Positions 9,241 to 29,931 of a stretch of DNA of 64,000 nt are shown here, piece after piece. The notes below the pieces were generated by a model, which was not told the origin of the DNA, ran no database searches, and saw only the letters and a program-made list of their open reading frames with translations. How positions within the stretch are numbered: the stretch's first letter is position 1; each line of letters begins with the position of its first letter. A program made the translations under genes and the position numbers. This stretch comes from an uncultured Elusimicrobiales bacterium (lineage in GTDB: Bacteria; Elusimicrobiota; Elusimicrobia; Elusimicrobiales; Elusimicrobiaceae). The stretch covers positions 62,001 through 126,000 of the forward strand of contig CALUVB010000022.1 in assembly GCA_944324115.1 (NCBI GenBank). Reading direction: 5' to 3'.

Positions 9241-9759
9241 CTACATAACCGGTTTTTCGTTTCCTTTAAACAGTCTTTTGCACCAGACTTCGCTGCCATA
9301 ACAAACAATCTGATTTGGATATGGGGCATTTTCACACGTCTCATATTGCAGCGTATATTTGATATCAATATTTTCAAAATCACCGGTGAAATTATCTACC
9401 CGGCGTGCCATGGGTCCGTTCACCAAGCCTGTCGCACAAAAATTCCCCCAAGACAAGGAGCTGTTAGCATAGCACCATTTGTCATTACAACAGATTTCCT
9501 CATCTCCATTAAACTGGCAAGTAAACCCGCCGCCCAATTCTATCCCGGCTTCTTCATTCGTTATTTGGTTGCAGCCCGCCACGCCTCGTTCCAGCACACA
9601 CAGCTCCCCCTGCTGATGCATATAACGCAACATCTGCAAAGCTTCCGCAGCGCGGCTTTTTTCCACCGCTGTTTCATACCGAGGCAAGGCAATGGCAGCC
9701 AAAATGCCGATTATTAATACCACAACCAACAATTCTATAAGCGTGAAACCTTTTTGCAT
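9241..9759 (-). CDS. Type IV prepilin-like protein
   Basis: This 172-residue protein starts [22 protein letters not shown], giving a 3-residue leader, the prepilin peptidase site (G|FTLIE, with Glu at +5) and a hydrophobic helix that both anchors the subunit and packs the pilus core. The globular part has about ten Cys residues, several likely to form disulfides. It is monocistronic and faces the hydrogenase gene. Elusimicrobiota carry many such solitary prepilin genes. No assembly ATPase, secretin or PilD gene is in the window, so whether it is a pilin or a pseudopilin is open. Confidence 0.88.
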
Positions 9760-9929: not shown

Positions 9930-10068
9930 AAAAAAGCAGCTTTTATTTTGGAAAGCTTTCACCCATTCCAAAACAAAGCTGCTTTCCATGTAATGCTTTA
10001 CATGGAAAAACAAGTTTGCTTTTAGGTGAAAGCAGTTCCCTTTTCGGAAACAGCCCCTTTTCAGGGCT
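9930..10068 (-). ncRNA. Candidate structured small RNA, copy A (pseudoknot plus terminator hairpin)
   Basis: Read on the minus strand this is about 139 nt with, in order: hairpin a (AGCCC/GGGCT, 10068-10052), hairpin b (TTCC/GGAA, 10049-10036), a free strand GCTTTCACC (complement of 10025-10033), hairpin c (11 bp, 10008-9983, loop AGCA), and hairpin d (GCAGC/GCTGC outer, TTTTGGAA/TTCCAAAA inner) closing at 9933 and followed by a U6 tract. The 12-nt loop of hairpin d (9954-9965) contains 9 bases perfectly complementary to the free strand, forming a pseudoknot. Copy B repeats the whole plan with different bases. Orientation is chosen because both copies end in a U-tract on this strand. No known RNA family was recognised. 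Confidence 0.6.
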
Positions 10069-10339
10069 AAAAACAAAATAATTTTTCCTGCAACGGCCAA
10101 CGGATCTATCCTTCCCTGCTAGTCGCAACCCACCAATCCACTCCATAGTGTTTCGTCAAAAGCGTTCCAGATACACATATACCCGCCGCCATATAAAGAA
10201 GGCCGATTGGGCACTACTTTCTCTTGCAAGGCAACTAAATCTCCGGGAAATGTGCTCCTCCGCTTTTGTCTGCGCCTGCCAGATCAAGTGAGCAATAAAT
10301 TCTGTGCATCGTTTTAAGGAGACCCTTCTCCATTTTTTT

Positions 10340-10465
10340 ACACTACGGGCGGGGATATGCCGCCATGTTTTTCTTGTACGCGTCTGCAGGCACACTCCAC
10401 CCCCTACACCGCGGCGGGGATATGCCGCCGCGGTGCGCTGCAGGGGAGCCGTAATTCCCCCTGCC
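10340..10465. repeat. GC-rich hairpin tract with a repeated 17-mer
   Basis: GGCGGGGATATGCCGCC occurs twice (10348-10364 and 10413-10429). The second copy is extended to an 11-bp stem, 10407-10417 pairing with 10425-10435 around loop GGATATG. A further hairpin follows (GCAGGGGA 10440-10447 with TTCCCCCTGC 10455-10464). It lies between the two structured RNA copies. No coding potential is convincing here. Confidence 0.55.
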
Positions 10466-10496
10466 ATACGGGTATTTAAAAGCCTCTTTTGCCAAC

Positions 10497-10640
10497 AAAA
10501 AAAGGCAACGCTTGCGTTATTGGTAGCTGTCACACAACCAATAACGGCGCTGCCTACTGTGTAATGCGTTACACAGTTAAATGGCGACGCCGTTTTCGGG
10601 GTGACAGCTCCCGGAAATCCGGGTGCTCCGCATCTGCGGA
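10497..10640 (-). ncRNA. Candidate structured small RNA, copy B (pseudoknot plus terminator hairpin)
   Basis: On the minus strand this is about 144 nt with the same order as copy A: hairpin a (TCCGC/GCGGA, 10640-10627), hairpin b (CCCGG/CCGGG, 10623-10610), a free strand AGCTGTCAC (complement of 10601-10609), hairpin c (9 bp, 10577-10556, loop CGCA), and hairpin d (10-bp inner stem 10515-10524/10537-10546 and outer stem closing at 10503/10555), ending in a U7 tract. The 12-nt loop of hairpin d (10525-10536) carries the perfect 9-base complement of the free strand. Relative to copy A almost every stem differs in sequence but keeps its pairing. The loop and its partner change together (T/A in A, G/C in B). 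Confidence 0.62.
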
Positions 10641-10727
10641 CCCAAAAACGAGCCGATTTAACTTATCAAAATAAATTCATTGCGTAATTTACGCTAGAAA
10701 TATTATGGCAAAAACCTCACCTAAAAG

Positions 10728-10757
10728 TAAACCCCTTCCCACAGGGGAAGGGGTTTA
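10728..10757 (-). terminator. Intrinsic terminator after rpsI
   Basis: A 13-bp stem (TAAACCCCTTCCC and its complement, loop ACAG) lies 24 bases past the rpsI stop, with a T-rich run on the minus strand. Confidence 0.8.
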
Positions 10758-10780: not shown

Positions 10781-11176
10781 TTAACGTTTGGAGAACTGGA
10801 AGCGTTTTCTGGCGCCCGGTTGGCCCGGTTTCTTTCTTTCCACCATACGCGGATCACGGGTCAAGAAGCCAGCTTTTTTAACTGTTTTCTTCAGTTCTTC
10901 GCTGATTTCCGCCACGGAGCGGGCAATGGCGTGGCGCAAAGCGCCGGCCTGTGCGGAAATACCGCCGCCCTGCACTTTGGCGGTCACATCATATTCTTTT
11001 TCCAAGTTGGTCACCGTAAGCGGAGCTTTGACGGTAGCTTGGAATTTTTCATGACCTTTAAAATAGTCAGCCAAGGTTTTGGCGTTGACAGTAATCACGC
11101 CCGTACCTTTTACCAATCTGGCCTGCGCTACGGAAGTTTTGCGGCGGCCGGTTTTAATTTCTTTGGTATTGTTCAT
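10781..11176 (-). CDS. rpsI: 30S ribosomal protein S9
   Basis: This 131-residue protein has the S9 signatures: GRRKTSVAQARL near the N-terminus, GGGISAQAGALRHAIARSV in the middle, LTRDPRMVERKKPG, and the C-terminal GARKRFQFSKR tail that reaches the P-site tRNA. It is the second gene of the standard rplM-rpsI operon, 15 bases after rplM, and is followed by a strong terminator. Confidence 0.98.
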   Translation of the reverse strand: MNNTKEIKTGRRKTSVAQARLVKGTGVITVNAKTLADYFKGHEKFQATVKAPLTVTNLEKEYDVTAKVQGGGISAQAGALRHAIARSVAEISEELKKTVKKAGFLTRDPRMVERKKPGQPGARKRFQFSKR

Positions 11177-28286: not shown

Positions 28287-29392
28287 TGCGTATTTTACTT
28301 TTGCCAAACAGCTTAAAAGGCTCTTTAAGCGCGCGCCAAACGGCGCGCGTTTTGGAATCGGTTCTCTCCCCGCGCCATTGTATAAAAAGCTTTCCTCTTT
28401 CCGACGGGGGAGATGGATTTATTGATTTCTTTAAAGCATTACACCCCAGCGCACGCCTCATTCACTTGCGCGCGAAAAATGCTTTTTTGAAAGAGAGAAA
28501 CACGTCTTACTTATGGCTGGAAAAAGAAAAAACAGCCGTAATAGAAACAGCCCGCATTTGCGGTTTGGCAACAGCTAAAAAAGAAGAACTCAATGTGCTG
28601 AAAGCTTCTTCCTTCGGCATCGGGCAGGCCATGGCGCACGCCCTGCGGCAGGGAGCAAAAAAAATATATATCGGGTTAGGCGGAGTGGCTTGCAACGACG
28701 CAGGGGCCGGCATTGCCCGTGCGTTGGGCGCTCTGTTTTGGGACCGAAAAAATCAGCCGCTTGCAGACGGAGCGAAACCGCTGTTGCAATTGGCGCGCAT
28801 AGAAACCGAAGCCGCCAAACGGCTTTTGCGCGGAGTAAAAATTTATGCTGTTGCAGATGTTGTCAATCCCATGCTGGGGCCGCAAGGCTCCGCCCGCGTA
28901 TTCGGCCCCCAAAAAGGCGCCACCCCCGCCCAAGTGCGTACGTTGGAAAAAGCCTTGCGCGTTTATGCGCGCGCCGTCAAAAACACGACCCATCGGGATA
29001 TCGCCCACACCCCCGGCACAGCCGCGGCGGGTGCGCTCTGCGCGGGACTGTACGGGCTGTTAGGGGCGAAGATTGTGTTCGGGGCGGATTTTATTAGACA
29101 GCATTTGCCGCTGGAGCGCTGGACTCAATGGGCGGAGCTGGTCATTACGGCAGAAGGGAAATTAGACGCCCAAACTTTCTTTGGCAAAGCTCCTTTAGCC
29201 GTGCTGAACTGCGCCGCCAAAAACAAAAAACCCGTCTTATTTATATGCGGCTCTTATGACGAGAAATCTCTAAGGAAGCTTCCGCACGGGCTGCGCCTCT
29301 CTGTTCTGTCTCTTGTGGATTTTGCCCCGCATCTTTCAGACTGCATAAAAAATCCAACACGTTATTTGCGCCGGGCACTTAAAAGATTCTAG
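28286..29392 (+). CDS. Glycerate kinase
   Basis: This 368-residue protein is of the GarK/GlxK glycerate kinase family, which phosphorylates D-glycerate with ATP. Signatures are LLPNSLKGSLSA at the N-terminus, PLSDGGDGFIDFF (about 36), SFGIGQAM (about 111), IGLGGVACNDAGAGIARALG (about 131-150), VADVVNPMLGPQGSARVFGPQKGA, and ITAEGKLDAQTFFGKAP near 290. It is translationally coupled to the upstream envelope gene. The stop is TAG and overlaps the converging prepilin gene by 4 bases. Confidence 0.93.
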   Translation: MRILLLPNSLKGSLSARQTARVLESVLSPRHCIKSFPLSDGGDGFIDFFKALHPSARLIHLRAKNAFLKERNTSYLWLEKEKTAVIETARICGLATAKKEELNVLKASSFGIGQAMAHALRQGAKKIYIGLGGVACNDAGAGIARALGALFWDRKNQPLADGAKPLLQLARIETEAAKRLLRGVKIYAVADVVNPMLGPQGSARVFGPQKGATPAQVRTLEKALRVYARAVKNTTHRDIAHTPGTAAAGALCAGLYGLLGAKIVFGADFIRQHLPLERWTQWAELVITAEGKLDAQTFFGKAPLAVLNCAAKNKKPVLFICGSYDEKSLRKLPHGLRLSVLSLVDFAPHLSDCIKNPTRYLRRALKRF

Positions 29393-29931
29393 AACGGTAA
29401 AATATAATACCGAGGCGTATCTTCTAGGCGCACGCCGCCCAAGGCTTTGCATAAACGCTCACGGGCGGGATCCAGGTTGGAATAACACCGCGGACTAGAC
29501 GAATCAAAAAACCAAACAAATACTATATTTTCATTTTCCCCAACTATATACAGGCGGGGTCTTCCGTTTTTACTAGCCAGATTATAGCTAGCTGTATTAT
29601 TTTTCTTAGTAGGACAATCTCCATCGGCATAAGCGTTGGAAAGACACGCCATGTCACTGGGCAAAGAAACGTCCAGCTCATTAAAGTCATAGCAATAGTC
29701 CCCATTACTCATAAGATAAAGTCGTTCCGCTTCTATAATACTACGCCCCAAGGGTAACAAAGACAACGCCTTGCTTTTTTGCACAGCCAACAGATATTGA
29801 GGCAAAGCTACCGCCGCCAATATGCCGATAATCAGCACTACCACCAACAGTTCAATTAATGTAAAACCGCTTCTTTTGCTTTTTAAGAAGTTTTTAGGAG
29901 AAAAGATACTTTTTTGATAGGTTTTGTCCAT
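29389..29931 (-). CDS. Type IV prepilin-like protein
   Basis: This is 180 residues from the ATG at 29931 (a TTG two codons upstream also opens the frame). The leader is long (about 20 residues, basic) before the peptidase site [19 protein letters not shown]. The globular domain resembles the short pilins or pseudopilins with a Cys pair near the C-terminus. It converges on and overlaps the glycerate kinase by 4 bases. Its upstream region holds an A12/T12 run (29946-29957). It is a second solitary prepilin, unlike the first beyond the N-terminal helix. Confidence 0.87.
   Translation of the reverse strand: MDKTYQKSIFSPKNFLKSKRSGFTLIELLVVVLIIGILAAVALPQYLLAVQKSKALSLLPLGRSIIEAERLYLMSNGDYCYDFNELDVSLPSDMACLSNAYADGDCPTKKNNTASYNLASKNGRPRLYIVGENENIVFVWFFDSSSPRCYSNLDPARERLCKALGGVRLEDTPRYYILPF

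Follow-up and report, generated by a model that had tools for sequence, protein, structure and literature searches.

Introduction

In transcription-attenuating riboswitch expression platforms of the SAM-I, TPP and lysine type, one strand is common to an upstream closing stem and an antiterminator, and an intrinsic terminator forms the alternative. Here we describe a family of structured RNAs reached from an earlier note on a 64,000-nt stretch of DNA from an uncultured gut Elusimicrobiales bacterium (contig CALUVB010000022.1, positions 62,001 to 126,000; hereafter the window), in which two tandem copies, A and B, lie on the minus strand. The family likewise has a strand shared by closing stem and antiterminator, together with an alternative terminator, but it differs in that its terminator loop pairs with the upstream junction through a private helix of 9–11 bp, kept in both folds, and in that the start codon is probably a further point of control. 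We consider it likely that the family is a bistable transcription attenuator of variable surface genes, most often those of type IV pilins. The mechanism would be a variant of known leader attenuators, set apart by the private kissing helix, a palindromic loop and the copy number.

In C. difficile, a cyclic di-GMP (c-di-GMP) riboswitch is found upstream of the type IV pilin gene pilA1 (PMC6200980). The present family resembles such pilin riboswitches in placing a structured leader and a terminator before type IV pilin genes, but it has no Rfam riboswitch match, a different fold, and dozens to more than 100 copies per genome. Palindromic kissing-loop RNA dimers of the HIV-1 dimerisation initiation site (DIS) type and others have been reviewed (PMC7357161), and ROOL, GOLLD and OLE are homo-oligomeric bacterial RNAs (PMC12286853). 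A longer form of our RNA has a comparable hairpin, P4a, with a 6-nt palindrome in a 9–11-nt apical loop with unpaired flanks; unlike those systems, the family would comprise bacterial mRNA leaders, is much smaller, has several palindrome classes per genome, and is only predicted to dimerise. Finally, the small RNA (sRNA) MarS (RF01732) is similarly terminator-ended and about 146 nt long, and was the region's top sub-threshold Rfam match, but at 22.6 bits, where the gathering score is 84, our RNAs are not members.

Conservation and covariation of the tandem RNAs

The earlier note described each copy as four hairpins in fixed order, including a TGTAA-NGCA-TTACA hairpin and ending in U6 or U7, and all of these are present within a few bases of where it had placed them, with U7 in B and U6 in A. 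The terminator loop was confirmed to be exactly 12 nt long in both copies and to carry a perfect 9-base complement of an upstream strand (AGCTGTCAC/GTGACAGCT in B, GCTTTCACC/GGTGAAAGC in A). That strand had been taken as free, but it lies in the junction of P1, an 11-bp closing stem with one bulged U that encloses hairpins P2 and P3 and the 9-nt pseudoknot (PK) strand. The RNAs begin about 20 nt earlier than the note had set their 5′ limits, and P1 was recovered unprompted by RNAalifold, with compensatory changes. The note's inventory is therefore right for P2–P5 and the PK, but it missed P1, the antiterminator pairing, the long-form P4a loop and the start-site hairpin, all described below. 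Both copies fold much more stably than shuffled sequences (B, z = −6.3; A, z = −5.7), and an intrinsic terminator, comprising a GC-containing hairpin and a U-tract, is present in both window copies and in family members.

A DNA search of 61 genomes gave matches in 11, every one from the same genus. Using a covariance model built from 24 copies (R1), strong matches of the A/B type (at least 97 bits) were seen in 16 genomes of the genus, with both copies present in 11. The gene rpsI lies upstream of the RNA pair in most of these genomes. As the copies are on contigs other than that of rpsI in G006 and G036, and about 1.3 kb from it in G065, the pair is not a by-product of the rpsI operon.

When the full structure, pseudoknot included, was imposed on the 24 homologues, 96.9% of pair cells were paired and two-sided changes were seen in 29 of 51 pairs. 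There were 185 two-sided cells, compared to 65 in shuffles (0 of 500 shuffles reached 185), and control versions in which the structure was slid along the alignment were only 41–47% paired. The 24 sequences are related, and the split between A and B types explains many of these changes, but the PK, P3 and P5 vary within types too. Loop and strand co-vary in relatives as AGTTATCAC/GTGATAACT, AGTTGTCAC/GTGACAACT and GTTTTCAC/GTGAAAAC, with further pairs GTAGTCAC/GTGACTAC and AGTTAGCAC/GTGCTAACT, and G-U pairs are frequent in the helices of the alignment. On this comparative evidence, copies A and B are conserved structured RNAs, and the earlier proposal that their structure is under selection is borne out.

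An Elusimicrobiota RNA family with private pseudoknots

The covariance search of Elusimicrobiota genomes that the note had called for did find homologues with conserved pairing. R1 also picked up divergent members beyond the genus, in further genera and in other families of the phylum, and nearly all of those that are readable have a perfect PK of 9–12 bp of their own sequence. A second model (R2), representing the longer form and built without the window copies, was positive in 96 of 341 Elusimicrobiota genomes; it nonetheless finds A (52.9 bits) and B (24.3 bits), which supports homology. In the long forms, RNAalifold run on a MAFFT alignment lost P2 and P3 because hairpin lengths vary, and those pairs were set by hand. 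Single-genome R2 counts were at least 119 in G084 (1.7 Mb), 59 in G065, 24 in G212 and 20 in G069, and the first of these would rank among the most copy-rich structured leader RNAs of any bacterial genome. An exact-pattern scan of 84,980 species returned at least 119 stretches; among the matches listed, every title that gives a group points to Elusimicrobiota of gut and rumen, and a few were titled only 'uncultured bacterium'. The genomes are mostly metagenome assemblies, model E-values are rough, and counts from the large searches are lower bounds. No match was seen in the viral contigs, phages and plasmids searched, and an origin in any of these was rejected.

At gathering scores, Rfam 15 reported only tRNAs in the window, in 12 homologue loci and in 124 kb rich in long-form leaders, which agrees with the note's statement that no known family was recognised. 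Permissive thresholds gave only unrelated sub-threshold matches, and the c-di-GMP-I and c-di-GMP-II aptamer models had no match in the window, the homologue loci or the 124 kb. In the open-access literature, supplements aside, we found no paper linking Elusimicrobiota, a little-studied phylum of gut and rumen, to structured or regulatory RNA of this kind. The RNAs form a phylum-level Elusimicrobiota family that appears to be undescribed as a family.

The pseudoknot of each copy is private. After near-identical copies had been collapsed, leaving 125, the strand and loop of the same copy formed at least 9 Watson–Crick pairs in 112, compared to 7 of 1508 cross-copy combinations; the pattern was first noticed in a smaller set of 46 copies. 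These barcodes are 9–11 bp long and differ among paralogues. The prior collapsing of near-identical copies led us to reject an artefact of sequence identity, and a chance origin is ruled out by the covariation together with this own-versus-cross comparison. Insulation of paralogues against cross-talk is one explanation for the barcodes, and neutral drift with compensation is another.

Some sequence variants were also observed. An RNA with CTTGTTTTTGG or CTTATTTTTGG in P1 is found upstream of element-like genes (L070, L085, L090, L103, L104, L068 and L081), in some cases near a ParB-like protein, and is followed by a palindromic box, CGACAAACGTTTGTCG, that resembles an operator. A third variant (L098 and L075/L106) has GATTATTTGTTGA/TCAACAAATAATC in P1, an unchanged architecture and an exact copy of the 5′ strand of P1 within the 5′ arm of the terminator; in L098 its PK is the 10-bp AGTTATCAGT/ACTGATAACT.

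Position of the RNAs relative to genes

Genomic context was assessed for 134 non-identical copies with enough flanking sequence, with downstream genes classed by motif. A type IV pilin gene, as defined by a strict motif, lies downstream of 78 copies, other genes follow 49, and none follows 7; some of the 49 are pilins as well. Judged by reading of motifs, the remaining genes seem to include glycosyltransferases, EcoRI-type adenine methylases, lipoproteins and outer-membrane proteins. Pilins, glycosyltransferases, DNA methylases and lipoproteins are classes under phase variation in other bacteria. Most family members terminate 30–50 nt ahead of a start codon (the median from U-tract to ATG is 38 nt for copies before pilins), and in many pilin leaders a −10-like TATAAT/TATACT box is seen about 20–30 nt before P1. 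Given this position before genes and after a −10-like box, a member of the family is typically a 5′ leader that contains a terminator, to which the window copies are an exception.

At locus L084, in another family (f10), a tandem pair resembling the B-A pair of the window precedes an EcoRI-type adenine methylase-like gene. There is also a second class of pilin genes (window 29389-29931, minus strand, and upstream; L157-L168 in G084) that has no leader RNA. In its promoter a homopolymeric run, T12-T13, lies between the −10 and a TTGAC −35, for example CTTGACCTATTTTTTTTTTTTGATAGCAT, an arrangement that resembles a promoter varying in phase by strand slippage. Pilin genes of the leader type and of the T-tract type are sometimes divergent in G084 and have one intergenic region in common.

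A second fold and a start-site hairpin

The 3′ strand of P1 (segment a′) is complementary to the 5′ strand (a) and also to the 5′ arm of the terminator (b), because b resembles a. Nearly all 24 sequences keep the core of the a′·b helix paired, and two-sided changes are seen in it; variants whose P1 sequences are unrelated retain the pairing as well (in L098, a is GATTATTTGTT and b is GGCGATTATTTGTT). When a′ and b were combined within and across seven sequence variants, the own b was the best partner in 7 of 7, with means of −16.2 kcal/mol for own and −9.0 kcal/mol for cross combinations. Minimum-energy folding of 15 members, which like the other energies given here does not score the pseudoknot, gave a two-hairpin fold for about half and a long-hairpin fold for the rest. 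The PK helix fits both folds, as a pseudoknot with the terminator and as a nested helix with the antiterminator. Its covariation therefore supports the pairing but does not alone choose the fold, and the earlier picture of a loop 'locked' by upstream RNA is right about the pairing but one-sided.

Between terminator and start codon, the RNA folds with a mean of −8.3 kcal/mol compared to −4.3 kcal/mol in shuffles, and in 38 of 65 cases every base of the start codon is paired, against 21% in shuffles. A motif resembling a′ (CCAAAA/AAACAG) occurs in 43 of 115 untranslated regions, where 7.8 would be expected, and the duplex of this segment with a has an energy of −7.6 compared to −4.9 kcal/mol. 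We infer from these values that a freed a segment could pair with the downstream a′ copy, opening the ribosome site.

The palindromic loop of the long form

Hairpin P4a is an extra element of the long form, absent from window copies A and B, with an apical loop of 9–11 nt in most copies. A 6-nt palindrome is present in the loop of 90 of 118 non-redundant copies, compared to 7.7 expected from shuffled loops, and a palindrome of at least 4 nt in 126 of 131 loops. At least eight different hexamers are used (TAATTA, TTATAA, TTCGAA, TCATGA, TTGCAA, TCTAGA, CTGCAG and CTATAG). We rejected the idea that the palindromes are plain stem extensions because a 6-nt palindrome leaves too few bases to close a stem. 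Self-complementarity that is retained through sequence change would be expected of a homodimeric kissing loop.

Proposed mechanism and alternatives

In the bistable attenuator that we propose, the OFF fold would pair a with a′, and b with b′, the 3′ arm of the terminator, giving the intrinsic terminator, and the private PK would join the two hairpins in a kissing contact. Pairing of a′ with b in the ON fold would remove the terminator while the PK is retained as a nested helix, and a would be free to invade the hairpin just downstream, containing an a′ copy, in which the ribosome site or start codon is hidden. Because the freed a would open that hairpin, one switch would turn on both read-through and translation, and the leader probably controls translation too. 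The switch might be triggered at the P1/P2/P3 junction, by a ligand or protein, or, in the long form only, by leaders that dimerise through their palindromic P4a loops. Such a device would offer a testable RNA explanation for the choice among dozens to more than 100 pilin genes, and the private kissing helix and palindromic loop permit precise mutational tests.

An extension of this mechanism, which we regard as unlikely, is an RNA-only address system in which the private kissing code insulates paralogues, the common palindromic code pairs leaders of the same class in trans, and terminated leaders influence which pilin, glycosyltransferase or methylase leader turns ON. If true, expression could be bistable or mutually exclusive with no need for DNA to rearrange or for a regulatory protein.

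Several observations weigh against a bistable attenuator of surface genes. About 40% of downstream genes fall outside the strict pilin motif. Because a and a′ hardly vary in the long form, covariation there is a poor guide to the switch, and the a′·b helix of copy A is weak (−6.3 kcal/mol). In the window, no coding gene lies directly behind copy A or B; the pilin gene behind A is 170 nt off and has its own promoter-like TTTACT-17-TATACT (9836-9808), and a promoter scan gave no clear promoter for copy A in this genome. A and B are accordingly described as orphan, tandem, short-form members whose own function is less certain than that of the family, and, since they have no adjacent coding gene, they probably act in this genome as terminated RNAs of about 160 nt.

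This bears on the alternative that we take as possible, if not favoured, and as a serious rival for the window pair alone: that the main role of A and B, and of terminated leaders in general, is that of trans-acting sRNAs, with the terminator supplying a defined stable 3′ end that the pseudoknot protects. It would suit the terminator ends without a coding gene directly behind, seen in the window and in close relatives, the side-by-side arrangement of A and B in at least 11 species, still paired away from rpsI in G036 and G006, and the promoter-like site of copy B's own. However, trans-acting sRNAs need not end 30–50 nt before a start codon, as most members do, and no seed-like conserved single strand was seen. 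No Hfq match was found in G000, G084, G065 or G099, where positive controls did match, and an Hfq-dependent sRNA was rejected. The earlier note had offered a regulated terminator or a trans-acting RNA; the former is the better description, but the two copies are not simply two sRNAs, being part of a phylum-level family whose typical member is a leader.

Somewhat unlikely, in our estimation, is a metabolite riboswitch with the P1/P2/P3 junction as its aptamer, binding for instance a cyclic dinucleotide, and with a′ as the shared switching strand in an OFF expression platform of the standard kind. The sharing of strands among P1, antiterminator and terminator is a textbook layout for this, C. 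difficile offers a precedent in the c-di-GMP riboswitches that control its pilins (PMC6200980), and GGDEF proteins were detected in 4 of 4 genomes tested, with 2–4 matches each. Set against these points are the lack of Rfam riboswitch matches, the low sequence conservation of the junction and loops outside helices, and a copy number of more than 100 per genome, which would be exceptional for a metabolite switch.

We think it improbable that the RNA is a constitutive insulator, whose terminator and ribosome-site hairpin silence spurious read-through of a large silent pilin repertoire while the second fold is idle. The sequestered start codon and the position of copies before many paralogous genes would agree with that role, but a silencer has no need of the −10-like box directly upstream of each copy, and the a′·b helix is matched within each sequence variant. 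DNA-level recombination or protein-binding sites for pilin gene shuffling are hardly credible, for although large paralogous pilin families invite gene conversion and DNA sites are also palindromic, G-U pairs are frequent in the helices and the features are strand-specific and ordered between a promoter-like box and a U-tract, ending before start codons. A leader-peptide attenuator was rejected, as there is no conserved open reading frame (ORF) and any lenient candidate ORF is present in only 44 of 139 leaders.

The window copies and their surroundings

The segments of the proposed bistable attenuator are mapped onto copies A and B, with their neighbours, in Table 1.

Table 1 Coordinates in the window of copies A and B, their structural elements and neighbouring features.
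Feature	Position	Strand	Evidence
Copy B, short-form RNA: P1, P2, P3, PK strand, P4, P5 terminator, U7	10497..10661	-	R1 164 bits, covariation
B P1 5′ strand (a)	10642..10653	-	covariation
B hairpin P2 (hairpin a of the earlier note)	10627..10640	-	covariation
B hairpin P3 (hairpin b of the earlier note)	10610..10623	-	covariation
B PK strand AGCTGTCAC	10601..10609	-	covariation
B P1 3′ strand (a′), alternative partners a or b	10589..10599	-	covariation, folding
B hairpin P4, core TGTAANGCATTACA	10556..10577	-	covariation
B P5 5′ arm (b)	10537..10554	-	covariation, folding
B PK loop GTGACAGCT, inside 12-nt terminator loop	10525..10533	-	covariation
B P5 3′ arm (b′)	10504..10524	-	covariation
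B U7 tract	10497..10503	-	sequence
Copy A, short-form RNA, architecture as B, U6	9930..10086	-	R1 141 bits; R2 52.9 bits
A P1 5′ strand (a)	10067..10078	-	covariation
A hairpin P2 (hairpin a of the earlier note)	10054..10066	-	covariation
A hairpin P3 (hairpin b of the earlier note)	10035..10051	-	covariation
A PK strand GCTTTCACC	10025..10033	-	sequence, relatives
A P1 3′ strand (a′)	10015..10025	-	covariation
A hairpin P4	9984..10007	-	covariation
A P5 5′ arm (b)	9966..9984	-	sequence
A PK loop GGTGAAAGC	9955..9963	-	sequence, relatives
A P5 3′ arm (b′)	9934..9953	-	sequence
Promoter-like TTTACT-18-CATAAT, TG before −10, upstream of B, conserved in relatives	10702..10731	-	promoter scan, sequence
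Type IV pilin-like gene (N-methylation motif), downstream of A	9241..9759	-	motif
rpsI (ribosomal protein S9), upstream neighbour; syntenic with the RNA pair in most close relatives	10781..11176	-	

In several relatives, a TATAAT-like box is seen in the sequence before copy A. Another terminator-like hairpin sits between copy A and the pilin-like gene of the window. The stretch between B and A (10068-10496, minus strand) has no ORF that seems real and contains GC-rich inverted repeats, for example CACCGCGGCGG-CATAT-CCCCGCCGCGGTG, that are shared with the inter-copy stretch of several relatives. Elsewhere in the same genome, outside the window (L088, G000:C22:145000-149000), one long-form leader precedes a glycosyltransferase-like gene; it has a TAATTA loop and a hairpin that hides the Shine–Dalgarno sequence (ATTTCCTCCG..CGGAGGAAAT).
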